64,000 bases of DNA from Bacteroidota bacterium (GTDB taxonomy: Bacteria; Bacteroidota; Bacteroidia; Chitinophagales; Saprospiraceae). Made by a program: the position numbers and the translations under genes. The first letter of the stretch is position 1. Every line of letters begins with the position of its first letter. The stretch lies in the NCBI GenBank assembly GCA_017857395.1, contig JAFMDF010000008.1, forward strand, positions 1 through 64,000. Direction: 5' to 3'. Below the pieces are notes generated by a model. The model did no database searches. It worked only from the letters and a program-made list of their open reading frames with translations, and was not told where the DNA came from. Positions 5,473-62,602 of this stretch are shown piece by piece.

Positions 5473-5481
5473 AGATTTCCC

Positions 5482-5600
5482 AAAATCATAAATCTTAAAT
5501 CATAAATCTTAAATCATACATCACAAATCATAAATCCATCTAGTTTTTACGTGACAGATTTATGATTTAAGATTTATGAACTGTGATTTATGATTTGTAC
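5482..5600. repeat. AT-rich long inverted repeat (AAATCATAAATC family)
   Basis: The left arm is made of repeated aaatcataaatctt units (5482-5537) and the right arm (5557-5599) is largely its complement, with the block agatttatgatttaag. The segment cacagttcataaatc (as complement) is shared with the perfect repeat at 10491-10562, so the two belong to one dispersed family. It lies just upstream of 4339-5472 and just downstream of 5621-6979. Confidence 0.7.
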
Positions 5601-5620
5601 CTTCAAAAAGATTTGGAGAA

Positions 5621-45538: not shown

Positions 45539-45565
45539 CTCAATTTTATTCAAAAACAACAAAAA

Positions 45566-47008
45566 ATGGATAGCACAAATGAACTAAATCGCCGCCAATT
45601 CCTACAAAAAATGCAGCAAGCCAGTATTGCTGCGATGGGCGCATCTGTCTCAACTATTCCATTTTTAAATGCTTGTACGCCCTCAAATACTAGAAAGTCT
45701 ACTGCTGATGCCGTCATTTTACTTTGGATGGCTGGCGGTATGTGTCATACCGAAACCTTTGACCCAAAGCGATATACGCCCTTTGAAAAAGGGATGGAAA
45801 GCAAAAAGGTCATTAGTACCTTTAAATCAATTCCGACTGCTTTAGATGGGGTTTCATTTTCCGAAGGACTAGAAAATATTGCTGGAATCATGGATAAAGG
45901 GATCTTGATTCGTTCTTATAGAGCAGCAGATTTAGGGCATATTTTGCATACCCGACACCAGTATCATTGGCATACTTGTTATGAACCACCACAATCGGTA
46001 CAGCCTCCTCATATTGGCGCATGGATTGCCAAAGAATTAGGCCCTAAAAATCCAGTTATTCCGCCGTTTATTGATATTGGACAACGATTTACCGTAGGAG
46101 AGGCAGAAGAACTTAAAGCCTTCCATTCCGCAGGTTTTTTAGGGAGCGAATTTGGCCCATTTATTATCCCAGAACCCGATAGAGGCTTGGCAAGTGTGTC
46201 GCCACCAAAAGGGATGAATTTAACCCGTTTTGAGAGCAGAAATAAGTTGTATAAAGAATTGGTTAAAAATAGTCCCTTTGAAAACTTTGGTAGCAATTAC
46301 CAAAAAGAATCTTTAATGCGGTCTATGGAAAAAGCTTATGAATTGCTAAAATCACCTGAGGCGGAAGCGTTTGATTTAAGCAAAGAACCAAAAGAAATTT
46401 ATGATAAATATAATACAGGAAGATTTGGTTTAGGTTGTTTGCAAGCTCGTCGATTGGTGGAGAATGGCGCTAGATTTATTAGTGTAACGACCGAATATGT
46501 GCCCTTTTTTGGTTGGGATACGCATGAAAATGGGCATACTAGATTACGAGACATGAAAGCTCAAATCGACCAACCTATTGCCCAATTAATCAAAGATTTG
46601 GAAGAACGAGGCTTGTTGGATAGTACTTTGGTGATTCTAGCAAGTGAATTTAGTCGAGATATGTTGGTAGAAGGGCGACCGGGGCAGACGGTAAAAGACC
46701 AGGTCCAAGTACCAGATAATATTGATAATTTGAAGCAATATGGAATGCACCGACATTTTACGGATGGTTGTTCCCTTTTAATGTGGGGCGGCGGTATCAA
46801 AAAAGGCTATGTTCATGGCGAAACTGCTGTGGAACGTCCTTTTAAGGCGATAACAGAACCTGTGGTGATTGATGAAATCCATCAAAGTATTTATCATGCC
46901 TTAGGCATTCCGCCAGAAACCAATTATGAAATAGAAAAACGGCCTTTTTATACAACTCCTGATGGGGAGGGGAAGGTTATCAAAGATATTTTTGAGAAGT
47001 TTAGTTAG
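45566..47008 (+). CDS. DUF1501 Tat-exported protein
   Basis: A 480-residue DUF1501 family protein, paralogous to 10576-12024. Tat leader NRRQFLQKMQQASIA (residues 8-22); a possible lipoprotein Cys in LNAC. Family blocks are VILLWMAGGMCHTETFDPK, FSEGLENIA, IGAWIAKELG and MWGGGIKKGYVHGETA. It belongs to the alkaline-phosphatase/sulfatase-fold superfamily. It follows the cytochrome gene with 27 bp, so the two are cotranscribed and probably form a functional pair. No catalytic role is established. Confidence 0.9.
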   Translation: MDSTNELNRRQFLQKMQQASIAAMGASVSTIPFLNACTPSNTRKSTADAVILLWMAGGMCHTETFDPKRYTPFEKGMESKKVISTFKSIPTALDGVSFSEGLENIAGIMDKGILIRSYRAADLGHILHTRHQYHWHTCYEPPQSVQPPHIGAWIAKELGPKNPVIPPFIDIGQRFTVGEAEELKAFHSAGFLGSEFGPFIIPEPDRGLASVSPPKGMNLTRFESRNKLYKELVKNSPFENFGSNYQKESLMRSMEKAYELLKSPEAEAFDLSKEPKEIYDKYNTGRFGLGCLQARRLVENGARFISVTTEYVPFFGWDTHENGHTRLRDMKAQIDQPIAQLIKDLEERGLLDSTLVILASEFSRDMLVEGRPGQTVKDQVQVPDNIDNLKQYGMHRHFTDGCSLLMWGGGIKKGYVHGETAVERPFKAITEPVVIDEIHQSIYHALGIPPETNYEIEKRPFYTTPDGEGKVIKDIFEKFS

Positions 47009-47191: not shown

Positions 47192-48592
47192 ATGAAAGAT
47201 TTATCAAGAAGAAAATTTTTAGCTTCTGTCAGTATGTTGGCAGCAGGTTGTGCGGTTTCAACGCCAGCTCATTTGATGCCTGCACCGAATCAAAAATTAA
47301 AAGTCGCTTTAGTCGGAACAGGTATTAGAGGCTCTAGTTTTTGGGGAAAAAGATTAGTGGACCAATATTCCGATATTTTAGAATTTGTGGGCTTGAGCGA
47401 TATTAACCCTGGGCGGATGGAAGGGGTGAAAAAGTATATGGGCGTGACTTGTCCGACTTTTACGGATTTTGACAAAATGATTAGCCAGGCCAAGCCAGAT
47501 TTAGTTATTGTCACTACCAAAGATTCTACCCACCACGAATTTATTATCAAAGGGTTGGAAAGTGGTTGTGATGTATTGACCGAAAAGCCTTTGACGACGG
47601 ACGAATTTAAGTGTCAACAGATTTTAGATGCAGAGAAGAAATCTAGTAAAAATTTAATTGTAGGATTCAATTATCGTTGGAGTCCTTATATGACCAAAAT
47701 AAAAGAATTATTGCATAATGGCGCAATTGGCAAGGTCACTTCCGTTGATTTTCATTGGTATTTAAATACGTATCATGGTGCGTCTTATTTTAGAAGATGG
47801 CATGGTTTAAAAGATTCTGGTGGTACGCTTTGGGTGCATAAAGCCACCCATCATTTTGATTTGTTAAACTGGTGGCTGGATTCTGACCCATCGGAAGTTT
47901 TTGCTTATGGAGCCTTAGAACATTATGGGCATAATGGAAAATTTAGAGGAACCAACTGCCGAACTTGTGACCATAAAAAAGAATGTAAATTTTACTGGGA
48001 TATTACAAAGAGTGAATCTTCCATGCGGCTATATGTGGAGCATGAAAAACATGATGGCTATCTCAGAGATGCTTGTCTTTTCCGCCCAGAAATTGATATT
48101 TATGATAAAATGTCCGCTCAAATAAAATATGCGAATGATGTAGTGGTCAATTATTCGCTAACAACTTATTCTCCTTATGAAGGCTGGAAAATTGCTTTTA
48201 ATGGAACGGACGGACGGATTGAAGCTTGGCTGGATATTCCTTATTTTGAAAATTCGCAAATGAGCCAAGCAGAACTCCATGCAGCGGAAATGAATCAAGG
48301 TGGTGCGAAAGAACTGGAAACCAAACCATTGATTTTGCATAAAAACTGGAATGATTTTGAACCCATCAAAGTCAGTTACGAGCGAAAGGGACATGGCGGG
48401 GGAGACCAACGCCTACAAGATAAAATCTTTAAAAACCCTAATAATCCTGACCCTTTAAGTCATGGTGCTGGTCTGCGAGATGGAGCGATGTCAATTTTAA
48501 TTGGGATTGCTGCTCGTCGAAGTATTGAACAAGGAAAACCTATTCGGATTGAAGATTTGACGGATTTGGAACCGCAGGCTAAAAGAATTTAA
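47192..48592 (+). CDS. Tat-exported Gfo/Idh/MocA oxidoreductase with a four-Cys cluster
   Basis: A 466-residue protein. Tat leader SRRKFLASVS at residues 5-14; Rossmann start KVALVGTGIRGSSF near 37-50; EKPLTTDE near 131-138. The C-terminal domain has an unusual Cys pattern: C256, C259, C265 and C295 (C-x2-C-x5-C-x29-C: NCRTCDHKKEC then RDAC). This suggests a Zn or Fe-S site. The enzyme should use a nicotinamide cofactor bound before export. It completes the second cytochrome/DUF1501/oxidoreductase triplet. The stop is immediately followed, in the same frame, by a sulfatase C-terminal remnant. Substrate is unknown. Confidence 0.88.
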   Translation: MKDLSRRKFLASVSMLAAGCAVSTPAHLMPAPNQKLKVALVGTGIRGSSFWGKRLVDQYSDILEFVGLSDINPGRMEGVKKYMGVTCPTFTDFDKMISQAKPDLVIVTTKDSTHHEFIIKGLESGCDVLTEKPLTTDEFKCQQILDAEKKSSKNLIVGFNYRWSPYMTKIKELLHNGAIGKVTSVDFHWYLNTYHGASYFRRWHGLKDSGGTLWVHKATHHFDLLNWWLDSDPSEVFAYGALEHYGHNGKFRGTNCRTCDHKKECKFYWDITKSESSMRLYVEHEKHDGYLRDACLFRPEIDIYDKMSAQIKYANDVVVNYSLTTYSPYEGWKIAFNGTDGRIEAWLDIPYFENSQMSQAELHAAEMNQGGAKELETKPLILHKNWNDFEPIKVSYERKGHGGGDQRLQDKIFKNPNNPDPLSHGAGLRDGAMSILIGIAARRSIEQGKPIRIEDLTDLEPQAKRI

Positions 48593-48837: not shown

Positions 48838-50376
48838 ATGAAAAAGCAAATAAATCGTTTCCTAGTCCTGATATTGATAGCAAGCATAAACATTCAGCAA
48901 GCAAAAGCAGATGTAAAACTTCCTGCCATTATTAGCTCGAATATGGTACTGCAACAAAATGCCGAAGTAACTATTTGGGGCTGGGCAAAATCTAAAGAAA
49001 AGATTACGATAACGAGTAGTTGGAATAAAAAAAAGGTAAAAACTAAAGCGGATAGAGATGGAAAATGGAGCGTAGCTTTAAAAACGCCTAAAGCTGGAGA
49101 GAATTATCGGCTGACCATTAAGGGAAAGAATAAAATTGAACTAGAAAACATCTTAATGGGGGATATTTGGGTTTGTTCTGGTCAATCTAATATGGATAGA
49201 GTATTGGGTTTGCAAAGAGGACAAAAGCCTATTATTAATTTTTGGGAAGCATCCCAACAAGCCAATCATCCAGAAATTCGATTTTTTAGGGTAAAAAGGG
49301 CTTTAGCTGATACGCCTCAGACTGATGTGGAAGGAGAATGGGTGGTTTGTACGCCCGAAACCGTTTTGGAGTTTTCAGCCGTAGGTTATTTCTTTGGTAA
49401 AAAATTACACCAACAATTAGGGATTCCTATTGGCTTAATCCATACGGCATGGGGAGGAACACCTGTAGAAGGTTGGACTCGAAAATCTGATTTGGCCAAT
49501 GATTTTATGATTGAAAAAGAGCAAGATGAGCAAGCACGTTTTAAATTGGATAGTGCGGCCTATGCTAAGAATATGGAAGCGTTTGAAAAAGGATTTCTCA
49601 AAGAACGCCCTACAAGACCACCAAGTTTTTATGTAAAAAGTCGAAAACACCATCGAATTGGACATCTGTATAATGCCATGATTCATCCTTTAATTAACTA
49701 TGCCATTAAAGGAGCAATTTGGTATCAAGGAGAATCTAACCGAGGTTTTCCAGAACAATATAAACAGCTATTTCCGAATATGATTCAAACCTGGCGGAAG
49801 GATTGGGGAATAGGCGATTTTCCTTTTTATTTTGTACAAATTGCCCCCTATTATTATAATGGTGACTATGCGATTCCACATATCTGGGAGGCACAATATG
49901 AAGCACTCAAATTACCTCAAACAGGCATGGCATCGACTCAGGATATTGGTCAAATTTATGATATTCATCCACCAGAAAAGGAGGAAGTAGGTAGAAGATT
50001 GGCTTTAGTCGCTCTCAATCAAACTTATGGAAAATCGGAGATTGCTTATTCTGGTCCCGTTCTAAAAAATACAAAATACAATGGAAATCAAGTAATACTG
50101 GAATTTGACCCAATGGGCGGAGAGTTGTTTTCAGCAGGAAGTGGAATTGGCGGTATTTCTCCTTTTTATATAGCCGATGAATTTCAAGTTTTTCATCCAG
50201 CAAGAGTTGAACAAAAAGGGAATACGCTTACTTTAACAGCGGATGGAGTGGCAAAACCAATTGCGGTGCGGTATTTATGGAATGATAATGCCAATGCGAC
50301 TATTTTTAATAGTTATGGTTTGCCTGCTGCTGGATTTCGGACGGATGAATGGGTAGGTGCAAAGTATGTGGAATAA
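48838..50376 (+). CDS. Sialate O-acetylesterase-family carbohydrate esterase
   Basis: A 512-residue SGNH-type esterase with a signal peptide (residues 1-24, QQAKA). Motifs: catalytic Ser117 in CSGQSNMD; the final block DIHPPEKEEVGRRLAL near 374-385 holds the Asp/His pair. The SASA domain (PF03629) spans about 105-390; residues 25-100 form an N-terminal beta-sandwich (LPAIISSNMVLQQNAEVTIWGWA). It removes O-acetyl groups from sialic acid or other glycans and acts outside the cytoplasm. Gene order (esterase, double hydrolase, nagB, transporter, nagA) suggests use of acetylated amino sugar polymers. Confidence 0.92.
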   Translation: MKKQINRFLVLILIASINIQQAKADVKLPAIISSNMVLQQNAEVTIWGWAKSKEKITITSSWNKKKVKTKADRDGKWSVALKTPKAGENYRLTIKGKNKIELENILMGDIWVCSGQSNMDRVLGLQRGQKPIINFWEASQQANHPEIRFFRVKRALADTPQTDVEGEWVVCTPETVLEFSAVGYFFGKKLHQQLGIPIGLIHTAWGGTPVEGWTRKSDLANDFMIEKEQDEQARFKLDSAAYAKNMEAFEKGFLKERPTRPPSFYVKSRKHHRIGHLYNAMIHPLINYAIKGAIWYQGESNRGFPEQYKQLFPNMIQTWRKDWGIGDFPFYFVQIAPYYYNGDYAIPHIWEAQYEALKLPQTGMASTQDIGQIYDIHPPEKEEVGRRLALVALNQTYGKSEIAYSGPVLKNTKYNGNQVILEFDPMGGELFSAGSGIGGISPFYIADEFQVFHPARVEQKGNTLTLTADGVAKPIAVRYLWNDNANATIFNSYGLPAAGFRTDEWVGAKYVE

Positions 50377-50538: not shown

Positions 50539-52557
50539 ATGAAACGTACTTTTTTTTTACTACTCTCCATACTAGGTTACTTCTCCTGCCAAGTGACCCA
50601 AACTATTATTTCGATTCCTGAACCTTCTAAAATTGATGGACAACGATATAAGGTATGGCAAAATAGAACAGATACCCTTCAGCATACTTATTTATTAAAT
50701 CGAGTCAATAAACAATTTGAGCAGCGTAGAAATACAGTGAATCAGACGTTAGTTTCCAAAAAGGCTATTTTAGCAAGAAGGGATAAAATGCGTCAATGGT
50801 ATCAAGAAAGAGTAGGGGAGTTGCCTGCAAAAACACCCTTAAATCCTAGCTATTCCCAAAAAATAGAACTGGCTGCTTTCACTATTGAGAAAGTAGTATT
50901 TGAAAGTCAGCCCAACCATCATGTAACAGGTTTATTTTATTTACCCAAAACAGGAAAAGCCCCTTTTCCAGCAGTTTTAATTCCATGTGGGCATTCCACC
51001 AATGGCAAAGCGGCGGAATCTTACCAAAAAGCAGCTCGATTATTTGCAATGAATGGGTTTGCCGTTTTACAAGCAGACCCGATTTCACAAGGGGAGCGGT
51101 ATCAGTACGTAGATGAAAATGGGCAGCCTTTGACTAGAGGAGGTACAAAAATGCACGAATTATTAGGACAAGCCTTACTCTTGACGGGTAGTAATACGCT
51201 AATTCATCAATTAACCGATAACATTCGATGTCTTGATTTTTTGGAAGCGCATCCTAAAGTTGATAAAAATAAATTGGCAGTTGCTGGTAATTCTGGTGGA
51301 GGTACACAGGTTACTTATTTGGTGGGCTATGATGATAGAATAAAGGTCGCAACACCGTCTTGTTACATTGCAACAACCGAAAAGAAATTTAATACCATTG
51401 GTTCTCAAGATGGCTGTCAGCAATTATGGGGAGAAGGATTGATGGGCATAGAGGAGCAAGATTTTTTATTGATGGCGGACAATATTCCTATTCGGATATT
51501 ATCTGCGGAACAAGATTTTTTCGCTATTGATGGTGCTAAAAAAGCTTTTCAAGAATTAAAAAAGCAATATACCACTTTAGGGATTACCGAAAAAGTAGAT
51601 ATGGTGACCACCAATGCCAAACATGGTTGGCATAAACCGTTAAGAGAAGCATCCGTCCAATGGTGCAAGCAATGGCTTTTGGACGATGCTAGTCCAGTTA
51701 CAGAACCAGATGATATAGGCTGGATAACAGCAGATAGCTTGGTTTGGGCGACTCCAAAAGGGCAAGTAATGGATGCTTTTAAAACAGAAAAAACGGTCAT
51801 TGACCTCAATAAAGCACAACTTAAAATTTGTGGGGTCAATAGGAGAGCTTTTTTGGAAAGTCATAATGATACCGAAATTATGGAACAGGTGAAACAGTTG
51901 ATAGGCTATCAAGCATTGACTAATTGGCAGGTTGAAACAACAGAAGTATGGGCTGAAAGTAATTTCGTGATGACTAAATTAGTTTTTCAGAGAGAACAAG
52001 ATGTTGATTTCCAATTACCCGCTTTACTATTTGAACCCGCCAAAGTTAACCGAAAATTGCCAGCTATGATTGTCGCCAATGAAGGCGGGAAAGCCGTTAA
52101 TTTAGTCCCAAATGGTTTAGTTGAAAAAGTTTTAAATCAAGGATATATTGTTTTAGTAATAGATGTTAGCAATATCGGAGAACTAAAAGATGGGAAAAAA
52201 GTCCATTATGAAAATAGCGAATATTGGGTCGCCAAACTAGCTTTATATGAAGGCAAGACCCTGCTTACTTACCGAACAGAAGATTTGGTGATGGCTGCCA
52301 ATTACTTAGCAAAACATCCTAAAGTTGATATCAATAATATTGAATTAAAAGCAGACGGATTAGTTGGACCTGCTGCGCTACATGCTGGTGTAATTAGTCC
52401 ACGTATTAAGTCAGTTGTAACTGAAAATAGTGTGATGGATTGGACTACAATTGCAGCGAATTATCACACACCTAACCAATTAGGAAATATAGTTCCCAAT
52501 GCGCTACATTATTATAATTTGTCGGATTTGTTGCTTATAAAGATGCCCAATAATTAG
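50539..52557 (+). CDS. Exported double alpha/beta-hydrolase (acetylxylan-esterase-like)
   Basis: A 672-residue protein, leader with a Cys (SILGYFSC, residues 10-17). The first hydrolase domain (about 100-390) has nucleophile motif GNSGGG near 249 and a His in KHGWHKP near 360, as in the AXE1/dienelactone-hydrolase group. A second hydrolase-like region (about 470-670) ends at DLLLIKMPNN without the usual C-terminal segment, so the second active site looks incomplete. It probably deacylates oligosaccharides in the periplasm. The next gene starts 33 bp later, using TTG. Confidence 0.8.
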   Translation: MKRTFFLLLSILGYFSCQVTQTIISIPEPSKIDGQRYKVWQNRTDTLQHTYLLNRVNKQFEQRRNTVNQTLVSKKAILARRDKMRQWYQERVGELPAKTPLNPSYSQKIELAAFTIEKVVFESQPNHHVTGLFYLPKTGKAPFPAVLIPCGHSTNGKAAESYQKAARLFAMNGFAVLQADPISQGERYQYVDENGQPLTRGGTKMHELLGQALLLTGSNTLIHQLTDNIRCLDFLEAHPKVDKNKLAVAGNSGGGTQVTYLVGYDDRIKVATPSCYIATTEKKFNTIGSQDGCQQLWGEGLMGIEEQDFLLMADNIPIRILSAEQDFFAIDGAKKAFQELKKQYTTLGITEKVDMVTTNAKHGWHKPLREASVQWCKQWLLDDASPVTEPDDIGWITADSLVWATPKGQVMDAFKTEKTVIDLNKAQLKICGVNRRAFLESHNDTEIMEQVKQLIGYQALTNWQVETTEVWAESNFVMTKLVFQREQDVDFQLPALLFEPAKVNRKLPAMIVANEGGKAVNLVPNGLVEKVLNQGYIVLVIDVSNIGELKDGKKVHYENSEYWVAKLALYEGKTLLTYRTEDLVMAANYLAKHPKVDINNIELKADGLVGPAALHAGVISPRIKSVVTENSVMDWTTIAANYHTPNQLGNIVPNALHYYNLSDLLLIKMPNN

Positions 52558-52589: not shown

Positions 52590-53327
52590 TTGAAAATACA
52601 AGTTTATCAAACTGCCGAAAAAATGGGACAAGCAGCAGCTCACCAAGCCGCTACTTTAATCCGTAAGACCTTAGCAGAAAAAGCTACTGCCAATATCATT
52701 TTAGCAACAGGTGCCAGCCAATTTGAAATGCTCAGAGCATTGGTACAAGAAAAAGATATCGACTGGTTAAAAGTAAGGATGTTCCATTTGGATGAATACA
52801 TTGGTATAAAAGACGACCATCCTGCTAGTTTTAGAAAATATTTGCAAGAACGTTTTGTGAATAAGGTTGCACCTTTAAAAGCTGCTTATTTTATACAGGG
52901 AGAGGCACCAAATTTAAAGCAGGAATGTAGTCGAATCAATCAATTAATTCAACAACATCCAATTGATGTGGCGATGATTGGGATAGGCGAAAATGGGCAT
53001 TTGGCTTTTAATGACCCTCCTGCTGATTTTGAAACAGCTGTGCCTTATATTATAGTGGAATTGGACGAAGCTTGTCGGAAACAACAATTGGGAGAAGGTT
53101 GGTTTCCAAATTTAAGTGCTGTTCCTGAAAAAGCGATTTCTATGAGTATTGCTCAAATTTTAAAAGCCAAACATATTATTTGTTCCGTACCAGATGAACG
53201 AAAGGCGCAAGCAGTTGCGGCGGCTATTAAAGGGAGATTGACTCCAGCATTACCTGCTTCCATTTTAAGACAACATCCAAATGTTTTTTTATATTTAGAT
53301 GTAGCTTCCGCTAAAGATTTGAAGTAA
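52590..53327 (+). CDS. nagB: Glucosamine-6-phosphate deaminase
   Basis: A 245-residue cytoplasmic enzyme of the GlcN6P deaminase/isomerase family (hexosamine catabolism: GlcN6P to Fru6P plus ammonia). LDEYIG near 66-71 and GIGENGHLAFNDP near 130-142 contain the catalytic and phosphate-binding residues; the ATGAS loop is near residue 40. The start is TTG at 52590; no in-frame ATG lies between the upstream stop at 52572 and it. The length is a little shorter than E. coli NagB (266 residues), lacking the C-terminal extension. It is in an operon with the esterase gene upstream and the Nramp-like gene 31 bp downstream. Confidence 0.9.
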   Translation: MKIQVYQTAEKMGQAAAHQAATLIRKTLAEKATANIILATGASQFEMLRALVQEKDIDWLKVRMFHLDEYIGIKDDHPASFRKYLQERFVNKVAPLKAAYFIQGEAPNLKQECSRINQLIQQHPIDVAMIGIGENGHLAFNDPPADFETAVPYIIVELDEACRKQQLGEGWFPNLSAVPEKAISMSIAQILKAKHIICSVPDERKAQAVAAAIKGRLTPALPASILRQHPNVFLYLDVASAKDLK

Positions 53328-53357: not shown

Positions 53358-54602
53358 ATGTTTAAGCAGGTATCCAAAAAAGCACTCGCAGCCCTCAGTC
53401 TCGTCGGTCCTGGATTATTTCTGATTGGCTATAATATCGGCACAGGTAGTGTTACTACGATGGCTAAAGCAGGGGCACAATACGGAATGTCTCTTTTTTG
53501 GGCGGTCATACTCTCTTGCATTTTTACCTATATTTTAATGGTGGCTTATGGCCAATTAACCCTTGTAACGGGAAAAACTGCCTTATATACCATCAAAACG
53601 AAATTGCGCTATGGAAAACCCTTGGCGCTATACATTTTAATGGCCCTTATTTTAGGAGAATTATTAGCCTTGATGGGCATTTTCGGGATTGTGACAGACC
53701 TTTTACAAGAAGGATTTCAATTAATGAATGATGATTGGGAGGTCTCTACAATGACTATAACTGCTGTTTTAGTACTGGCACTTTTTGCCTTATTATATCA
53801 CGGTCGGTATGCCACTTTTGAAAAGATACTAACAGGTTTTGTCATTTTAATGGGCCTTAGTTTTATACTCGTCTTTTTGATGGTCAAACCCGATTTTGGC
53901 CAAATAGTGAAAGGTATGGTGCCACAAATTCCAAAGCAAGCAGGCGCTTTTGGTTTGATTGCAGCTATGGCTGGAACTACTTGTTCCGCAGCAGTTTTTA
54001 TCATTAGAAGTATCGTTATTTCAGAAAAAGGTTGGACTATAGCCAATTTGCAAACGGAAAAAAGAGATGCTTTTGTTTCCGCAAGTATGATGCTTTTTTT
54101 AAGCGGCATTATTATGGCGGTATCTGCGGGTACCTTACATTTGATGGGTTTGGAATTGACGAATACGGTGGAAATGATTCAATTATTTCAACCATTGGGT
54201 GGAAAAACTGCCGCCTTTCTATTAATTTTAGGGATAACAGGTGCTGCTTTATCTACCGTCTTTCCTATTATATTAATCGCTCCTTGGCTGATTTGCGATT
54301 ATACGGGAAAAGAACGAAATATTCAATCCCCTTTATTTCGGATTTTAGGGGGCATAGGTTTATTATTTGGTTTTGGTCTGCAATTTATTGAAGAACGTCC
54401 ACCAGCCATGATGATTTTTTCACAAGCATTTCAGGCCTGCATTTTACCTGCAGTAGTAATTCCTGTTTTAATTTTAATCAATCGGAAGGACATTATGGGA
54501 AAATATACTGCCAACCTAAAAAAGAATATTGGGATTATTGCGGTATTAATTTTTGGTTTGATAACTTCATATTTTGCTATTAGCGGTTTGATTTATAAAT
54601 GA
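53358..54602 (+). CDS. Divergent Nramp-family transporter lacking metal-site signatures
   Basis: A 414-residue integral membrane protein with about 11 predicted helices and overall similarity to Nramp (LeuT-fold) divalent-metal transporters (GPGLFLIGYNIGTGSV, AKAGAQYG). The two metal-binding signatures are not present: in TM1 the canonical DPGN is replaced by NIGTG (residues about 27-31), and in TM6 the canonical MPH is replaced by SAA within AGTTCSAAVFIIRS (about 205-218). It lies 31 bp after nagB and 161 bp before a nagA-like gene. The position suggests a substrate other than Mn2+/Fe2+; an organic solute such as a hexosamine is a hypothesis, not a result. Confidence 0.82.
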   Translation: MFKQVSKKALAALSLVGPGLFLIGYNIGTGSVTTMAKAGAQYGMSLFWAVILSCIFTYILMVAYGQLTLVTGKTALYTIKTKLRYGKPLALYILMALILGELLALMGIFGIVTDLLQEGFQLMNDDWEVSTMTITAVLVLALFALLYHGRYATFEKILTGFVILMGLSFILVFLMVKPDFGQIVKGMVPQIPKQAGAFGLIAAMAGTTCSAAVFIIRSIVISEKGWTIANLQTEKRDAFVSASMMLFLSGIIMAVSAGTLHLMGLELTNTVEMIQLFQPLGGKTAAFLLILGITGAALSTVFPIILIAPWLICDYTGKERNIQSPLFRILGGIGLLFGFGLQFIEERPPAMMIFSQAFQACILPAVVIPVLILINRKDIMGKYTANLKKNIGIIAVLIFGLITSYFAISGLIYK

Positions 54603-54763: not shown

Positions 54764-56053
54764 ATGAATAAATTTAAAGAAATCACCTTAGCCGTTACCC
54801 TTTTCTTTCTATTCCTATTTGGTTTTTCGGCTTGCACCATTAATGCCCAAACCCTAAAGTCAACTGAAATGCCTCTATCAGAGAAAAACGAAGAGAGAAC
54901 AGTCGAAGGCTTATTTTATTTAGATAACCGTCCAATTAGAATCACTATTAAAAACAGCAAAATTGTTCAAATTCAAAGGATAGCGGAATTAAGTAAGCCA
55001 ACCTTAGCCAAAACTTATATTGCACCTGGGCTGATTGACCATCAAGTAAATGGTTATTTGTCCCATTCTTTTGTCGGCGAACAATTAACAAAAAATAAGA
55101 TTCAACAAATTACGGAAGCCTTTTGGCGTGAAGGCATTACTACTTATTTGCCCACCCTAACGACCAATAGTTTTGAAATTATACATAAAAATTTTGGCAT
55201 CTTAGCAGCAGCTATTAAAGACCCTCATATTGGACAATCCATTCCCGGCTTTCATTTAGAAGGGCCTTATATCTCAGATTTGGATGGCTTTCGAGGGGTT
55301 CATCCCAAACCACATATTCGCCAACCCGATTGGGAAGAGTTTTCAAAATGGTATGAAGCTGCTGACCAGAAAATATTAGAAGTCACGCTTGCACCAGAAT
55401 TAAAAGGAGGCATTGCCTTTATTGAAAAATGTCGAGCTAAAAATATTGTTGTAGCAATTGGGCATCATAATGGCTCGGCGGCTACTATCAAAGCAGCAGC
55501 AGATGCAGGTGCTTCGGTGTCCACCCATTTAGGGAATGGTTGCGCCAATACCATTCATCGGCATGATAATCCGCTTTGGCCGCAACTAGCAGATGACCGA
55601 CTAGCCGCTAGTATTATTGTAGATGGTTTTCATTTACGACCAGAAGAAGTACAAACTTTTTTTAAAGTAAAAGGAGTTGACAATACCATTTTAGTATCGG
55701 ACATCGTTCGTTTGGCTGGTTCTCCTCCAGGTATTTATGAAGATTTTGGCACGCAAGTAGAAGTGACCAAAGAAGGAAAGGTGATGATGCCTTCTCAAAA
55801 TGTCTTAGCAGGGGCCTCTTTTTTAATCACTACGGGTGTTGAAAATATGTTGAAATTTACGCAATGTTCTTTGGCGGATGCCATCCACATGGCAAGTCGA
55901 AATCCTGCTAGGTTGTTAGGATTGACAGACCGAGGGGTACTTAGTATAGGCAAAAGAGCGGATATGATTTTATTTACGATGGAAAATGGTAAAATGGAGA
56001 TTGAACAAACTTTTGTGGGAGGGGAGTTGGTTTATGTTAAAGATAGCAAGTAG
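54764..56053 (+). CDS. Exported NagA-like amidohydrolase (N-acetylglucosamine-6-phosphate deacetylase family)
   Basis: A 429-residue amidohydrolase. Uniquely among NagA-type proteins it has a leader (residues 1-27 with LFLFGFSAC, a lipobox at Cys24). Active-site residues match E. coli NagA: QVN near 94-96 (the Q-x-N form), HLEGPY near 164 (metal Glu), GHHNGS near 232 and THLGNG near 255 (metal His), DGFHL near 287, and SDI near 312 (catalytic Asp). The core is therefore complete. NagA is normally cytoplasmic and acts on a phosphosugar; a lipoprotein leader implies a periplasmic N-acyl sugar. Symbol withheld because the substrate is uncertain. Confidence 0.85.
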   Translation: MNKFKEITLAVTLFFLFLFGFSACTINAQTLKSTEMPLSEKNEERTVEGLFYLDNRPIRITIKNSKIVQIQRIAELSKPTLAKTYIAPGLIDHQVNGYLSHSFVGEQLTKNKIQQITEAFWREGITTYLPTLTTNSFEIIHKNFGILAAAIKDPHIGQSIPGFHLEGPYISDLDGFRGVHPKPHIRQPDWEEFSKWYEAADQKILEVTLAPELKGGIAFIEKCRAKNIVVAIGHHNGSAATIKAAADAGASVSTHLGNGCANTIHRHDNPLWPQLADDRLAASIIVDGFHLRPEEVQTFFKVKGVDNTILVSDIVRLAGSPPGIYEDFGTQVEVTKEGKVMMPSQNVLAGASFLITTGVENMLKFTQCSLADAIHMASRNPARLLGLTDRGVLSIGKRADMILFTMENGKMEIEQTFVGGELVYVKDSK

Positions 56054-57470: not shown

Positions 57471-58970
57471 TCATAGAGATGCCCAATAAGTCGCAGGCAT
57501 TAATTCCTGACATTTCCCCTCCAATTCCTTTAAAATAGTTGCATATTCGGCTTGTTCGGCGACATTGGTCGCTTCATTTCCATCTTTAGAATGGTCATAT
57601 AAAACGGTATGAATCGTTGAACCTTCTTTATACTTCGTCAACCGATAGTTGGAAGTTCTCAAAGTATAGCCATTTTTCCAAAATCCTAAAGCGGAATCAT
57701 CCAAAGCAGCTTTGGGATTGACTAATAAAGGGACTAAACTCTTTCCTGCAAGGGCATTGGGTGCTTTAATTTGCCCTAATTCCAGTAAAGTCGGATAAAT
57801 GTCTACGCTTTCCACTACGGCCTCATTGGCCATTCCTGCTTTTTTCATATCAGGTGTCCGTATCATAAAAGCACTTCGTAAAGAACGCTCAAATAAGGTA
57901 TGTTTGCCCCAAACGGTATGGTCACCCAAATGCCAACCATGGTCGCCCCAAACCACCACAACTGTATTTTTATCTAAACCAGTTTCTTTTAAAGTTTGCA
58001 TCAATTTACCGACTTGTGCATCGGTATAACTAACTGCCGAAAAATAAGACCTCCTTAAATGCATAGCATAGTCATCACTCAAGCGAATCCCTCTTCCCCC
58101 TTTTTCTGGCTGCCCTTGATAATTGCCAAACATTTCCCCACTATTTTGAACGGCATCGGGTGGAATATTTTGCGGCATATCAGGCGTAGGAGAGAGCGGC
58201 AACTCTTTTCCTTCATATAAATCCCAATATTTCTTAGGGGCTACAAAAGGTAAATGCGGTTTTAAAAAACCAACTGCCAGAAAAAAAGGCTGTTCTTGAT
58301 TTTTTAATCTTTTTAATTCGGAAATCGCTTTGTCTGCAATTAAACCATCAGGCAAGTCACCATCCTTTTCGGCTACAAATTCCGTCGGTGAACCCTTTCG
58401 TTTCTTTTCATTTCGATTGCTACCATCGGCGTAAGCAAAAAAAGCATTCCAAGCCGTTCCCCATTTACCAACTGGTCCCCATTCATAATCCCAACTATTG
58501 GGCATTTCTGGTCTGCCGTCTCCTTCGCCTTCATACGTATAAATTTTACCGTCAACATAATGACTTATTTTACCTAAACTCGACGTGTAATACCCGCCAT
58601 TTTTCAAGGCTTTTGGTAAAGTTTGCAGTCCTGCCTGTTCTGTTTCTGCCAAATCATCTCTGAATACTTGATTACTGAGATGTTTTTTGTATTGTGGATA
58701 CTGTCCTAATAGCAAGGAAAAACGAGAAGCGCCACAAGTTGGTACTTGCACATAATGATTTTTAAATAAGCGACCTTCGGCGGCTAATTGGTCTAAATTA
58801 GGCGTATGCATGTATTTTTCGCCATAACAATTGAGTTGTGGCCTCAAGTCATCTATGGCGATGAATAGGATATTTGGTTTTGCTTGGCTACTTATTGTTT
58901 GTTGGGTAGCGCATTGCCAGCCGCTGAAAATTATTAATAGTAATAGGAAAAATGGTAGTATTTTATTCAT
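57471..58970 (-). CDS. Sulfatase (iduronate-2-sulfatase-like), lipoprotein, CxASR-type
   Basis: A 499-residue sulfatase, lipobox GWQC (Cys20). The formylglycine motif is CGASR at 79-83, i.e. Ala in place of Pro, which is allowed by the C-x-[PA]-x-R rule. Metal-site IDD is at 39-41; VGFLKPHLPFVAPK and WGDHGWHLGDHTVWGKHTLFE are the other sulfatase hallmarks. Its closest style match is iduronate-2-sulfatase, as for 35323-36789. It lies first in a run of three minus-strand sulfatases. It acts on a sulfated glycan outside the cytoplasm. Confidence 0.9.
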   Translation of the reverse strand: MNKILPFFLLLLIIFSGWQCATQQTISSQAKPNILFIAIDDLRPQLNCYGEKYMHTPNLDQLAAEGRLFKNHYVQVPTCGASRFSLLLGQYPQYKKHLSNQVFRDDLAETEQAGLQTLPKALKNGGYYTSSLGKISHYVDGKIYTYEGEGDGRPEMPNSWDYEWGPVGKWGTAWNAFFAYADGSNRNEKKRKGSPTEFVAEKDGDLPDGLIADKAISELKRLKNQEQPFFLAVGFLKPHLPFVAPKKYWDLYEGKELPLSPTPDMPQNIPPDAVQNSGEMFGNYQGQPEKGGRGIRLSDDYAMHLRRSYFSAVSYTDAQVGKLMQTLKETGLDKNTVVVVWGDHGWHLGDHTVWGKHTLFERSLRSAFMIRTPDMKKAGMANEAVVESVDIYPTLLELGQIKAPNALAGKSLVPLLVNPKAALDDSALGFWKNGYTLRTSNYRLTKYKEGSTIHTVLYDHSKDGNEATNVAEQAEYATILKELEGKCQELMPATYWASL

Positions 58971-59027
58971 ATAAATTGATTATTGATTTTTAGCTAAATA
59001 AAGTGTACAATTATAAAATACAAAATC

Positions 59028-59062
59028 ATCCGTGGACAAGTGTACTTTAGTTTCCCACGGAT
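59028..59062 (-). terminator. Candidate terminator of the 59140 sulfatase gene
   Basis: ATCCGTGG (59028-59035) pairs with CCACGGAT (59055-59062); another copy of CCACGGAT is at 59068-59075. On the minus strand the stem is followed by GATTTTGTATTTT. Confidence 0.5.
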
Positions 59063-59139
59063 TACTTCCACGGATAAAAATTTGTATATTCTATTTTCTG
59101 AATATTAATGGGACTCAGATAAATTATACATCGTTAGTT

Positions 59140-60729
59140 TTAATCCTTAATCTTAGCCTGAAAAACTGGATTATATGCTCCTCGTTCCTTAAACCCAGCA
59201 AACTCTCGCATCCCACCAAATCGAGGATAACTTTCAAAAACATCGCCTGTCCCCAACATTCTAGGGTCGCCCTGTTCTGTTAAGGCAGAAACCAATTGCA
59301 CATCCAATTTTTTCAAAGTTGCTGCAAAAGAAGGGTCATTTGCCAAATTTTTAGTACAACCAGGGTCATTTTTAATATCAAATAATTGTTCCGCAGGTCG
59401 TTTGCCAACGGCTAATTCCAAATAATCGGCTAGTTCAGCCTGTTCTAATAAATGCGTTTTACTCGGACAAGCATCAATATCATGATAGCCTTGATTCATA
59501 GCCTTAAAGCCTTTTGGCAATTGATGATTAGTAGGAAATTCAATCGCTGGGTCGCCCGCTGGCCATCTATCAGGTTTTAAATTTTTAATAAATAAAAAGT
59601 CTTGGGTGCGAATGGCACGAGCAGGATAACCAAAATTATTTGGTCGAGCATGGGTATGACGTTCTCTGCCTGTTAACACCATTTGACGACTTTCATCTAC
59701 TAAATTTTGTTTTTCGGATTGCAGAATATTCACTAAACTCCGACCAGTAATTCCTTGATAAGTAGGCGTATTTGACAACTCTAAAAAAGTAGGTGCTAAA
59801 TCAATAGTTGCGACCAAATCATTGACTACTCGACCACCTTTAACGGTTGGCCCAGCAATCGCTAAAGGCACATGTGTCCCATATTCTTGTAAATTCGCCT
59901 TAGCATACGGAAAAGCCATTCCATTATCAGCGGTAATGACCACAATGGTATTATCCAATTCTCCTGCGGCTTCAATATGTGCCAATATTTCTCCTAAATG
60001 CTTATCAAACCACTCAATTTCTACCGAATAATCTAAAATGTCACCTCGAACCTCCGCATCATCAGGCAAAAAATCGGGCACATTTACATCAGCTAATTTC
60101 TTGCCTTCTTTTAAACCCGACCCTTTTTCAAATACTCGATGTGGTTCACTAGCACCATACCAAAAAAAGAAAGGTTGACTCGCTGCTTTCTTATCTAAAA
60201 AGGCGTTAAAATTAGCGGAATAATTGGTGTTTCTAATGCCAGTATAAGGGACTGATTCTAATTTTATAGCATTATATTCAGGGCCAACAGGATTTCTTTT
60301 CCAACCTGCATCTTTATAATTACCAGGCCCCCAAGGTTTACCTGTATATCCTAAAGCATAGCCATTTGCCTCTAAAACATCTGTGAAAACGGGATGTTTT
60401 TTAGGAAAATAACTGCCATGGGTGCCTGCTTCTTCGAGTTGCCAGATATTTCGCCCCGTTAAAATAGCGGCACGGGAAGGACTACATTGGGGCGCTGCCA
60501 CAAAAGCATTATTGAATAAAACGCCTCTTTTGGCAATGGCATCGAAATTAGGCGTAATCGTTGTTTTATCGCCATAAATAGAGGTGTATGGAAAGGATTG
60601 GTCGTCTGAGATGGCGAATAGAATATTGGGTTGTTTTTTTTCAGTTTCTTGATTTGGTGTTGTTTGACTTGAACAAGCAAGTAGTGATAGAAAGATAATG
60701 ATGCCTAGAATTGATACTGATTTTTGCAT
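59140..60729 (-). CDS. Heparan N-sulfatase-like sulfatase, lipoprotein
   Basis: A 529-residue sulfatase, lipobox LLAC (Cys19), FGly motif CSPSR at 82-86, metal-site SDD at 41-43. ITADNGMAFPYAKANLQEYG is typical of N-sulfoglucosamine sulfohydrolase-like (S1_8) enzymes. The Glu-Lys-Lys-Gln linker between lipobox and sulfatase domain (ETEKKQPNIL) matches 61157-62602. The 5' leader of about 45 bp, including the start codon, is also shared with that gene. It likely removes N- or O-sulfate from a hexosamine. A remnant pair lies between the two sulfatase genes. Confidence 0.9.
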   Translation of the reverse strand: MQKSVSILGIIIFLSLLACSSQTTPNQETEKKQPNILFAISDDQSFPYTSIYGDKTTITPNFDAIAKRGVLFNNAFVAAPQCSPSRAAILTGRNIWQLEEAGTHGSYFPKKHPVFTDVLEANGYALGYTGKPWGPGNYKDAGWKRNPVGPEYNAIKLESVPYTGIRNTNYSANFNAFLDKKAASQPFFFWYGASEPHRVFEKGSGLKEGKKLADVNVPDFLPDDAEVRGDILDYSVEIEWFDKHLGEILAHIEAAGELDNTIVVITADNGMAFPYAKANLQEYGTHVPLAIAGPTVKGGRVVNDLVATIDLAPTFLELSNTPTYQGITGRSLVNILQSEKQNLVDESRQMVLTGRERHTHARPNNFGYPARAIRTQDFLFIKNLKPDRWPAGDPAIEFPTNHQLPKGFKAMNQGYHDIDACPSKTHLLEQAELADYLELAVGKRPAEQLFDIKNDPGCTKNLANDPSFAATLKKLDVQLVSALTEQGDPRMLGTGDVFESYPRFGGMREFAGFKERGAYNPVFQAKIKD

Positions 60730-60771
60730 TAAAGGGTGATTTTGTGGCTGAATAAGGCAAGGATAGGGAAT
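60727..60771 (-). repeat. Conserved sulfatase-gene leader, copy 1
   Basis: Sequence cattaaagggtgattttgtg and onward (to ggcaaggatagggaa) matches 62600-62646 with few changes. It covers the start codon and the 5' untranslated region of 59140-60729. Confidence 0.7.
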
Positions 60772-60839
60772 TATTATTTGTGTAAGAGAGGGTGGATGTA
60801 ACTTTTGGTAGAGTAGGAGTTACGAGGATTCCACCATCT

Positions 60840-61007
60840 TTATTTTTTTACGAATTTTTCTATCTGTACTTGAAGACCATCTTTATTATTAATCTGGACA
60901 AAGAATATCGAATTATGCATACTTTGTAAATCTAATTCGATTAGTTCGTTTTTCCTTAAGTTAATCTTCTTTTGGTAAGCCACTCTACCCGTTAAATCAA
61001 ACTTGTT
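60840..61007 (-). pseudogene. T9SS C-terminal sorting-domain remnant
   Basis: The last 55 codons of a minus-strand frame ending at 60840 read [20 protein letters not shown] and a closing IEKFVKK, as in a T9SS type A sorting domain. The codons before 61007 are antisense to the FAD remnant next to it, so no protein precedes the domain. It is the C-terminal stump of a secreted protein. Confidence 0.65.
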
Positions 61008-61010
61008 TTT

Positions 61011-61136
61011 ATGGTATTGGGACAATCTGCTGCTACGGCGGCAGTTTTGGCGATTGAGGAGAATATTGCTGTGCAAGAGGTGCCCTATGATAAATTGAAG
61101 CATATTTTGACGGAGAAGGGGCAAATTTTAAAATAA
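61011..61136 (+). pseudogene. C-terminal remnant of an FAD-dependent oxidoreductase
   Basis: A 41-codon frame that begins at ATG 61011 reads [20 protein letters not shown] and ends KGQILK, then a stop. This matches the closing segment of exported FAD-dependent oxidoreductases (related to 2341-4122, where the homologous region includes RTTGQMGAAV). Nothing of the catalytic domain is present. It is joined, head to head, to the T9SS remnant at 60840-61007; the break is at 61008-61010. Confidence 0.65.
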
Positions 61137-61156
61137 GCGATTAGCAGATTTTCGGT

Positions 61157-62602
61157 TTAATTATAGTCCATTCCGTTTTTACTATTTTCAACAGAGTTCA
61201 ACCATTCCAATAAATCCGCCTTTAATTGTTTAGCTACTGCGGGGAAAGTCTCAATAATATTTTCTTTTTCTGATTTATCATTTAATAAATCGTACAATTC
61301 AAAATTTTCTAGGTTTTCATCTCCAATCAATTTGTATTGATGCGTAACCCAGGAGACTTTTGAATTAAAGATAAACCCAATTGGTTTTGTCCTGTTCTCC
61401 TTGTTGCCTTTTAGTGAATTTAAAACACTTATTCCATCAATGGGTCTAGCATCAGGATAATCTAAACCCAGCATATCCAATAGGGTAGGCATATAGTCAG
61501 AAGTGACCATAGGAAAATCGATTCTCTGACCTCCTTTTAAATGATTTTTCCAAATAACAAATGCGGGTACTCTGACCCCTCCTTCATATAGGCTTCTTTT
61601 TCGTTCTCGAAAAATCCCAGCACTACCAGGCGTTCTATTCTCTGGTCCATTATCACTACAGAAAAAGATAATCGTTTCTTCTTGAATATTAAGTGCTTCT
61701 AGTTTTTTCCACAACCTGCCAATCTGTTCGTCCATGGCAGAAATAGTCCCATAATAAATTTGTTTTGGTAAGGTCAACTCTTGATAATAACTTCGGTGAA
61801 GACTATCACTAACTACAGGTAAATGAGGGGTGTGAAACCAGATTGTTGAAAAGAATGGTTTAGCTGCTTTATGCGAATTTTCAATGAATGGAATGATTCT
61901 ATCTATTAGGATACGAGCATCATCTCCTTTTAAGTTATTTGTTTCTTTTTGATTTTCTTCCGTCCAGTATGCTGTGCCATATGCCTTAGTAGCATCAATA
62001 TTTTTGACCGCTCTCCAGCCAAAACGCATCCCTTCTCCTTCGATAAAATTGTTTGGAAAGACCATAGGGTCGTACGTAGGTACTTTTGATTCTGTACAAA
62101 AAAACTGGTCATACCCATGTTCCGTTGGAATCGTATAGGCCTTGTCGTGTTTTGGTCTTCCGCCTCTGTTCGCATCCTTAACTGATTTTGTTAGTGTTCC
62201 TAAGTGCCACTTACCGAAATGTCCAGTTGCGTATCCTTCCTTTTTTAAAATTTCAGCAATGGTAATTTCTTCCTTCATCATGTACCCACTATTAGCCGTT
62301 GGAATATTCATTCTAAGCGGATTTCTTCCAGTAATTAAGCTAGCTCTTGTTGGAGAGCAAACAGCGGAAGCAGCATAAAATCTATCGAAAATTATACCAT
62401 TGGACGCTAATAAATCCATATTAGGCGTTCTTATCTCCTTATTTCCGTTAAAACCAGCATCAAACCAACCTTGGTCGTCTGTCATAATTAATAGGATGTT
62501 GGGTTGTTTTTTTTCGGTTGGCTGGTCTTGTTCTGTTGAAGCCGAACAGGCAATTAGTAAAAAGGAGAAAATGAGGCCTGTAATTATTCTTGATTGTTGC
62601 AT
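61157..62602 (-). CDS. Arylsulfatase, lipoprotein
   Basis: A 481-residue sulfatase with lipobox LLIAC (Cys19), FGly motif CSPTR at 82-86, metal site TDD at 41-43, and GHFGKWHLG near 127-135. The arylsulfatase A/B style motif FCSDNGPENRTPGSAG and the FRERKRSLYEGGVRVPA loop are present. The N-terminal linker TEKKQPNIL is shared with 59140-60729. It is likely to act on a sulfated sugar outside the cytoplasm. A -33/-7-type promoter candidate lies upstream (62632-62664). Confidence 0.9.
   Translation of the reverse strand: MQQSRIITGLIFSFLLIACSASTEQDQPTEKKQPNILLIMTDDQGWFDAGFNGNKEIRTPNMDLLASNGIIFDRFYAASAVCSPTRASLITGRNPLRMNIPTANSGYMMKEEITIAEILKKEGYATGHFGKWHLGTLTKSVKDANRGGRPKHDKAYTIPTEHGYDQFFCTESKVPTYDPMVFPNNFIEGEGMRFGWRAVKNIDATKAYGTAYWTEENQKETNNLKGDDARILIDRIIPFIENSHKAAKPFFSTIWFHTPHLPVVSDSLHRSYYQELTLPKQIYYGTISAMDEQIGRLWKKLEALNIQEETIIFFCSDNGPENRTPGSAGIFRERKRSLYEGGVRVPAFVIWKNHLKGGQRIDFPMVTSDYMPTLLDMLGLDYPDARPIDGISVLNSLKGNKENRTKPIGFIFNSKVSWVTHQYKLIGDENLENFELYDLLNDKSEKENIIETFPAVAKQLKADLLEWLNSVENSKNGMDYN

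Follow-up and report, generated by a model that had tools for sequence, protein, structure and literature searches.

A Nramp-fold protein without metal-binding motifs, encoded beside nagA-like and nagB-like genes in Bacteroidota, is a probable importer of an organic solute

Proteins of the Nramp family are textbook metal importers. In C. glutamicum, the NRAMP family protein PxpT is reported to be required for growth on 5-oxoproline (PMC13274462), and YcsG of B. subtilis is reported both to be needed for 5-oxoproline use and to act as a Mn2+ importer (PMC10448178). Both lie beside pxpABC. Like the protein described here, they are NRAMP family members with a place in a catabolic operon and a proposed organic cargo. 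Nramp-related proteins without the metal motifs are described as a diverse group (PMC12873925; PMC9606685), and one of these relatives, EleNRMT, is reported to transport Mg2+ and Mn2+ (PMC8806188). In Alteromonas sp. 76-1, a Nramp protein from an alginolytic gene cluster is termed a metal-ion transporter (PMC6431674); it too is encoded in a sugar-acid catabolic cluster and, likened to ours by its description only, perhaps represents a sister type in an alginate context. On the amino-sugar side, it has been proposed that periplasmic GlcN is acetylated by NagX before uptake, phosphorylation, and the action of NagA (PMC9007349). That NagX/NagP/NagK/NagA route also includes an extracytoplasmic amino-sugar step, but the step there is an acetylation, whereas the predicted exported deacetylase described below would catalyze the reverse.

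The preliminary description of our locus held that a change of cargo toward amino sugars or a deacetylation product would be new for the Nramp family. This was too strong, because PxpT/YcsG-type NRAMP proteins have already been reported with 5-oxoproline as their cargo (PMC13274462); an organic cargo is thus not wholly new in the family, and PxpT is the precedent. In the open-licence PMC literature, as covered by titles and abstract openings, we found no report of a Nramp protein with an amino-sugar or uronate cargo, and the open-licence PMC literature likewise yielded no description of an amino-sugar Nramp branch associated with an exported deacetylase.

The window that we analyzed is a stretch of 64,000 nucleotides from a member of the Saprospiraceae (contig JAFMDF010000008.1 of assembly GCA_017857395.1). 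The transporter gene is indeed flanked by nagB-like and nagA-like genes, as first described; all three are on the same strand, with the nagB-like gene ending 30 bp before the transporter gene and the nagA-like gene starting 161 bp after it. The features of the region are collected in Table 1.

Table 1. Features of the transporter locus (positions are those of the window)
Feature	Position	Strand	Basis or remark
GFO/IDH/MocA dehydrogenase, twin-arginine-like N-terminus	47192..48592	+	Possibly same gene cluster
SASA-domain (sialate O-acetylesterase type) protein	48838..50376	+	Possibly same gene cluster
Esterase-like protein (AXE1 and Abhydrolase_7 matches)	50539..52557	+	32 bp before nagB-like gene, probably same transcript
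Diverged NagB-like deaminase/isomerase, probably cytoplasmic	52590..53327	+	TIGR00502 155 bits; cut-off of 236.9 missed
Nramp-related (PF01566) transporter, 414 aa, without metal motifs	53358..54602	+	ATG start; Pfam, fold, MntH alignment
TM1 codons 28-31, GTGS replacing DPGN	53439..53450	+	E. coli MntH alignment; 84/84 clade rows
TM3 Glu101, candidate ammonium-binding residue	53658..53660	+	Column conservation; role inferred
TM6 codons 210-212, SAA replacing MPH	53985..53993	+	E. coli MntH alignment; clade rows
TM6b Arg217, candidate anion-binding residue, column of second MntH TM6 His	54006..54008	+	Conservation; role inferred
NagA-like deacetylase, predicted exported	54764..56053	+	TIGR00221 235 bits; cut-off 225.65
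Predicted lipoprotein/export signal of NagA-like protein, ending FSAC	54764..54835	+	Translation; hydrophobicity 2.73

The protein matched the Pfam Nramp profile over residues 32 to 386 with 188 bits (cut-off, 29.8), spanning positions 1 to 356 of the 357 in the profile. An AlphaFold2 model built with 80 sequences (mean pLDDT, 83.0; pTM, 0.84) had the Nramp (LeuT-type) fold. Its top fold match among the matches listed was EleNRMT (Z, 44.6; rmsd, 2.6; 386 aligned), a DraNramp chain gave a Z of 44.4, and AdiC was also among the structural matches; in this comparison and in Foldseek, the best solved matches were Nramps. By sequence, too, EleNRMT (7qia) was the best solved relative (3.4e-21). The MntH/nramp subfamily cut-offs were missed (67.2 vs 430 for NF001923 and 26.9 vs 272.5 for TIGR01197). 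The general NCBIfam model NF037982 was passed with 71.8 vs 50 bits, through residues 17 to 228 only, and this half-length match would name the protein, and likewise that of locus L112, a divalent metal transporter. The clade is probably misannotated through NF037982; if the reading as an organic-solute importer is right, hundreds of such genes are misnamed.

In an alignment with E. coli MntH, the DPGN of TM1 corresponded to G28-T29-G30-S31 and the MPH of TM6 corresponded to S210-A211-A212. The loss of both metal signatures claimed from the sequence alone was thereby confirmed, as was the change from MPH to SAA, but the TM1 register is GTGS and not NIGTG as first given. We aligned the amino-sugar clade in 84 rows, 82 of them distinct (L117 and L154 are duplicates of L035 and L036). 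The canonical TM1 motif DPGN (DxxN) was absent from all 84 rows, each of which had GTGS, and the canonical TM6 motif MPH (A/CxxM) was absent, with SAA in its place. G28, T29, G30, S31, E101, S210, A211, and R217 were invariant in the 84 rows, and A212 was present in 83. Because the same residues are kept across the whole clade, the changes in the metal motifs do not reflect gene decay. The canonical proton-pathway residues (the TM3 acidic residues and TM6 His) were not matched either, in that the clade departs from the MntH rows at columns 98, 105, 212, and 217, with the TM3 alignment uncertain by one residue. MntH, DraNramp, and BfraNramp thus share the family and fold of this protein, which has other residues in place of their TM1 and TM6 metal-motif residues and of both their TM6 histidines. 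Nor was the NRMT motif (TM1 DxxG plus TM6 TxxA/T) found, the TM1 Asp being Gly28 and TM6 reading T207-x-x-S210. EleNRMT, which is 20% identical in the structural alignment, likewise departs from the Mn/Fe motif but keeps the TM1 Asp (DxxG).

To collect relatives, we aligned four close members, used them to scan a collection of species genomes, and took the best 80 of 221; all counts of amino-sugar loci out of 80 below refer to this set. Over the alignment, 79 of the 80 were 63 to 72% identical to the window protein, and the metal residues were missing in every one. By deposited label, 64 of the 80 were from Bacteroidota. The other labels, which are unchecked, were those of MAGs assigned to KSB1 (6), Planctomycetota (3), and Calditrichota (2) and of single MAGs assigned to Deferribacteres, Chlorobiota, Acidobacteriota, Alphaproteobacteria, and Actinomycetota.

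The operon had been described as one of amino-sugar catabolism. The conserved linkage upholds this, since NagA-like and/or NagB-like neighbors were found in 67 of the 80 loci, but the route does not appear to be the usual cytoplasmic one through GlcNAc-6-P. Both genes were present in 49 loci, the NagA-like gene only in 14, the NagB-like gene only in 4, and neither in 13, some of the absences being due to short contigs. When only the 58 loci flanked by 2.5 kb or more in each direction were counted, a NagA-like gene was found in 50, a NagB-like gene in 43, both in 41, either in 52, and neither in 6 (L093, L101, L107, L109, L134, and L149). The exact order NagA, Nramp, NagB occurred in 41/80 loci, and the median intergenic gaps were 19.5 bp over 58 pairs and 17 bp over 45, short distances that speak for a single transcript covering the module. 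A dehydrogenase of the GFO/IDH/MocA type, ~450 aa long, was encoded in 40/80 loci and a second one of ~330 aa in 35/80, mostly upstream, and an RRxF motif stood at the N-terminus in 39/47 and 31/33 cases, respectively. Such an RRxF-type start is a feature of Tat-exported proteins. Compared with the model for the glycoside 3-dehydrogenase BT_2158, one of the larger dehydrogenases scored 146 bits, far below the cut-off of 750. Simple deacetylation leaves the recurrence of these dehydrogenases without an explanation.

Other neighbors were sporadic. A sulfatase-like gene was found in 13/80 loci and is not conserved, a search with a single ROK query and a single PfkB query detected a sugar kinase near the module in only 3/80 loci, and the esterase-like protein encoded upstream of the window's nagB-like gene had no conserved counterpart beside the module in the 80 relatives. 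A LacI-type regulator was present in eight loci and a 3-keto-disaccharide hydrolase (PF06439) in two. GlcNAc 2-epimerase-like genes (L126, L162, L163, and L094; one cluster member scanned), NagX-like (HGSNAT) membrane acetyltransferase genes (L095 at 4768-5922, L108, L144, and L157; one scanned), and, some genes downstream, glucuronyl-esterase-like genes (L111, L125, L144, and L161; one of the four scanned) each accompanied 4/80 modules, the last being a possible hint of uronate-containing glycans. Class-III aminotransferases occurred in three loci (one cluster member scanned). The recognized transporter clusters shared by at least three loci were a TRAP component (five loci) and a Na/Ca exchanger (four loci), both on the opposite strand, and a few further clusters shared by at least three loci were left unannotated; in L128, a sugar-transporter (MFS) gene lies downstream of the module. 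Markers of uronate, aldonate, or alginate metabolism appeared in 2/80 amino-sugar loci (L131 and L155). L131, a single MAG, encodes near the NagB-like gene a KdgK-like kinase and a short-chain dehydrogenase resembling the UxuA-adjacent one of L055, and this pair would suit an amino-uronate route.

The NagA-like protein of the window begins with a hydrophobic stretch closed by the lipobox-like FSAC. We classed an N-terminus as export type when a 13-residue segment within the first 70 aa had a mean hydrophobicity of at least 1.9, a test that uses no signal-peptide program. By this measure, 56 of the 57 full-length NagA-like relatives have an export-type N-terminus, the sole exception being truncated by a contig end, and 51/57 passed a stricter test. 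None of eight controls passed (E. coli NagA, five canonical NagAs of the window's family from L167 to L171, and two canonical ones, L218 and L236, from genomes with the exported type), and the highest value among them was the 1.76 of E. coli NagA. Ahead of the metal motif, exported-type NagA has 66 to 106 residues, compared with 56 to 61 in six controls. The NagA-like enzyme is thus predicted to reside outside the cytoplasm, and in 17 of 19 named genomes no NagA besides it was found at an E of 1e-20, G103 and G115 having others; in the window's own genome, the single NagA above the TIGR00221 cut-off is that of the operon.

The predicted exported enzyme keeps its catalytic residues. The metal ligands and catalytic Asp (E131, H195, H216, H251, and D273) were kept in 59/59 NagA-like relatives, as were the C6-phosphate residues N219 and R227 (E. 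coli numbering), accompanied by the changes A220G and E228H, also in 59/59. Mycobacterial NagAs are reported to accept GlcNAc-6-sulfate but not GlcNAc without a C6 anion (PMC6016474). This specificity, together with the retained C6-anion residues, makes an anionic C6 group on the substrate likely, and outside the cytoplasm a sulfate or carboxylate would be more plausible than a phosphate at that position.

No hydrophobic N-terminal stretch was found in any of 50 NagB-like relatives. We take D72, D141, H143, E148, R172, and K208 to be the active-site residues of E. coli NagB. D72, H143, and K208 were kept in 52/52 NagB-like relatives, and in the same 52 D141 was Asn, E148 was Asp, and R172 was lost, although the placement of the R172 loss depends on the alignment and B. 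subtilis NagB also has Asn at D141. The NagB-like proteins also carry an inserted stretch of the CRxQQxGEGWF type. Another NagB match, one above the cut-off, was present in all 19 named genomes, 18 of which carry the operon gene (L111 is without it). This other NagB is of normal length in 7/19 genomes and only a domain of a 640- to 684-aa frame in 12/19, so that redundancy for GlcN-6-P deaminase is less sure in those 12; in the window's genome, the match lies within a 671-aa frame. With another NagB elsewhere and changed residues in the operon copy, the latter appears to be a paralogue that has taken on another function.

Matches to the transporter were found in 78 of 100 genomes of the window's family, and we took the neighborhoods of 40 of them. 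Twenty-nine loci (L038 to L066) encode proteins of the GTGS/Arg217 type outside the amino-sugar branch; L066 is fragmented and was left out of the alignment. At least one uronate, aldonate, or alginate marker lay within seven genes in 21 of the 29, by a marker list compiled after the loci had been inspected (alginate lyase PL7, PL6/chondroitinase B type, Hepar_II_III/alginate-lyase, UxuA, UxaC, KdgK-like, KDPG aldolase, DGOK, and MR_MLE), and NagA or NagB was found near none of these 29. A third branch had the 5-oxoprolinase genes PxpA, PxpB, and PxpC in all six loci fetched, and a PxpA-like gene was found in none of the 80 amino-sugar loci. Of the refutation envisaged in the preliminary description (homologues away from hexosamine genes that transport divalent metals), one part was observed, in that more distant homologues do lie away from hexosamine genes, but in uronate and 5-oxoproline operons.

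The phylogeny with gene neighborhoods called for in the preliminary description matched transporter branch to pathway. The amino-sugar branch received a support of 100 in a 77-row tree, with the alginate branch as its sister (unstarred support, 91); this was a quick tree with long outgroup branches, and we did not rely on its deep order. On 49 labelled rows, the three pathway labels required two changes, which is the minimum. The neighbors found per branch (alginate/uronate genes, PxpABC, or NagA/NagB) thus indicate that the transporter branch tracks the pathway. The six PxpABC-linked loci, through which the tree and alignment cover proteins encoded beside pxpABC, form a separate branch with VPYN in TM6. 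In column 217, all 112 rows from the amino-sugar and sugar-acid branches had Arg, and 6/6 PxpABC-linked and 3/3 MntH rows had His. Column 101 was Glu in 84/84 amino-sugar rows and in both rows of a small branch (L038 and L041), Gln in 18/18 alginate rows, Val in 6/6 UxuA rows, Ile in 2/2 rows of another branch, and Asn in the 6/6 PxpABC-linked rows. Arg217 is thus common to the sugar-acid branches, and Glu101 is almost private to the amino-sugar branch. The simplest reading of these columns would be that Arg217 serves the anion and Glu101 the ammonium group, although both residues could be structural.

We consider the protein a probable inner-membrane importer with a Nramp fold whose cargo would be an organic solute, presumably a deacetylated and probably zwitterionic amino sugar, and not a metal. 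Our confidence attaches chiefly to the general part, that it imports an organic compound for its operon, in which we would trust about twice as readily as doubt it; for the specific zwitterionic cargo it is clearly lower. The pathway would be split between outside and inside with the Nramp-like protein in between, because export is predicted for NagA and the dehydrogenases and not for NagB. The exported NagA-like enzyme would deacetylate an anionic N-acetylated amino sugar outside the cytoplasm, and the freed amino compound would then enter through the Nramp-like protein. In a pocket formed by TM1, TM3, and TM6, as suggested by conservation and the alignment, Arg217 would be the partner of the anionic group and Glu101 that of the ammonium group, and the diverged NagB-like enzyme would deaminate or isomerize the imported compound to a ketose in the cytoplasm. 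The likeliest cargoes would be an amino-hexuronate or a hexosamine-6-sulfate, with plain glucosamine less likely. Neither specific cargo is well supported, given that sulfatase-like genes occur in 13/80 loci and uronate markers in 2/80; we do not take the sulfatases to establish a 6-sulfate cargo, and an amino-uronate cargo with the uronate enzymes as its proof is kept as an idea.

A divalent cation importer (for Mn2+, Mg2+, or another ion) that feeds the metalloenzymes of the pathway would fit the Pfam match and the fold, both of which are Nramp, and NagA is indeed a metalloenzyme. The NRMTs indicate that a changed motif can mean another cation and not the loss of cation transport (PMC8806188), and overexpressed YcsG is reported to have raised cellular Mn (PMC10448178). 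We nevertheless regard a cation cargo as unlikely. The TM1 Asp that the NRMT motif DxxG/TxxA-T calls for is Gly in 84/84 rows, the TM6b His has become Arg in the amino-sugar clade, and the transporter branch tracks the sugar pathway. Metal supply for NagA in particular lost ground with the predicted export of that enzyme, since metal brought into the cytoplasm would be of no direct service to it.

A plain GlcNAc or GlcN importer for a kinase-NagA-NagB route, with the export-type N-terminus a mere detail, is in our judgment distinctly improbable, for an exported NagA cannot reach cytoplasmic GlcNAc-6-P. The neighbors do resemble NagA and NagB, and NagX-like and GlcNAc 2-epimerase-like genes each accompany 4/80 modules, but a ROK or PfkB kinase lies near the operon in just 3/80, and mycobacterial NagA is reported as inactive on GlcNAc without a C6 anion (PMC6016474). 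The ordinary cytoplasmic GlcNAc-6-P operon is weakened both by the predicted export of NagA and by the other NagB match found in 19/19 genomes, and with NagA predicted to be exported and NagB diverged, free GlcN or GlcNAc is not the best guess for the cargo. Direction of transport is not readable from sequence, LeuT-fold proteins include exchangers, and AdiC is among the structural matches, all of which would allow for an exporter or exchanger of a product (e.g., acetate, ammonium, or a sugar acid) or for a solute sensor. We give such a role very little credence, because the protein recurs between the exported and the cytoplasmic enzymes of one operon, where a route of import would otherwise be missing.

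The preferred reading, an importer of an organic solute, may extend beyond the window. Sister Nramp-type proteins in alginate/uronate operons (e.g., L046, L049, L058, and L064 among L039 to L064) may import sugar acids, and these sugar-acid branches may outweigh the finding in the window itself. In the broadest version, which we offer tentatively and at somewhat less than even chances, a large Nramp branch of Bacteroidota and other phyla would consist not of metal transporters but of sugar-acid importers acting via the invariant TM6b Arg, with a sub-branch in which the exchange of a TM3 Gln or Val for Glu would have led to importers of zwitterionic amino sugars (amino-hexuronate or hexosamine-6-sulfate). 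The substrate would be made by exported enzymes, i.e., two Tat-type dehydrogenases and the relocated NagA, and used by the neofunctionalized NagB, in a pathway that would be undescribed. If this is true, the Nramp family moved by traceable steps from carrying metal ions to carrying sugar acids and amino sugars, with two residues testable as the switch, and an amino-sugar route with deacetylation outside the cytoplasm would bear on the use of amino-sugar polymers by marine and sediment bacteria.

Several loci carry further arrangements around Nramp-type genes. In L072, L074, and L155 (8303-11703), another Nramp-type protein, with FGPGS in TM1 and a TM6 without Arg, is followed by epimerase-like and DHDPS-like genes, and in L155 this FGPGS-type module adjoins the amino-sugar module. 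The genes of L038 and L041, the branch with Glu101 and Arg217, lie beside xylose-isomerase-like genes; L041 additionally has genes for a gluconolactonase-like protein and a GFO dehydrogenase nearby. In the window itself, genes for a PSCyt1/PSCyt2/PSD1 protein and then a DUF1501 protein (42695-47008), a pair that we take to be one known from Planctomycetes, lie directly upstream of the GFO dehydrogenase gene. Four sulfatases with SGSH_C matches flank the region (57471-62602 and 35323-36786) and point to sulfated glycans as food.
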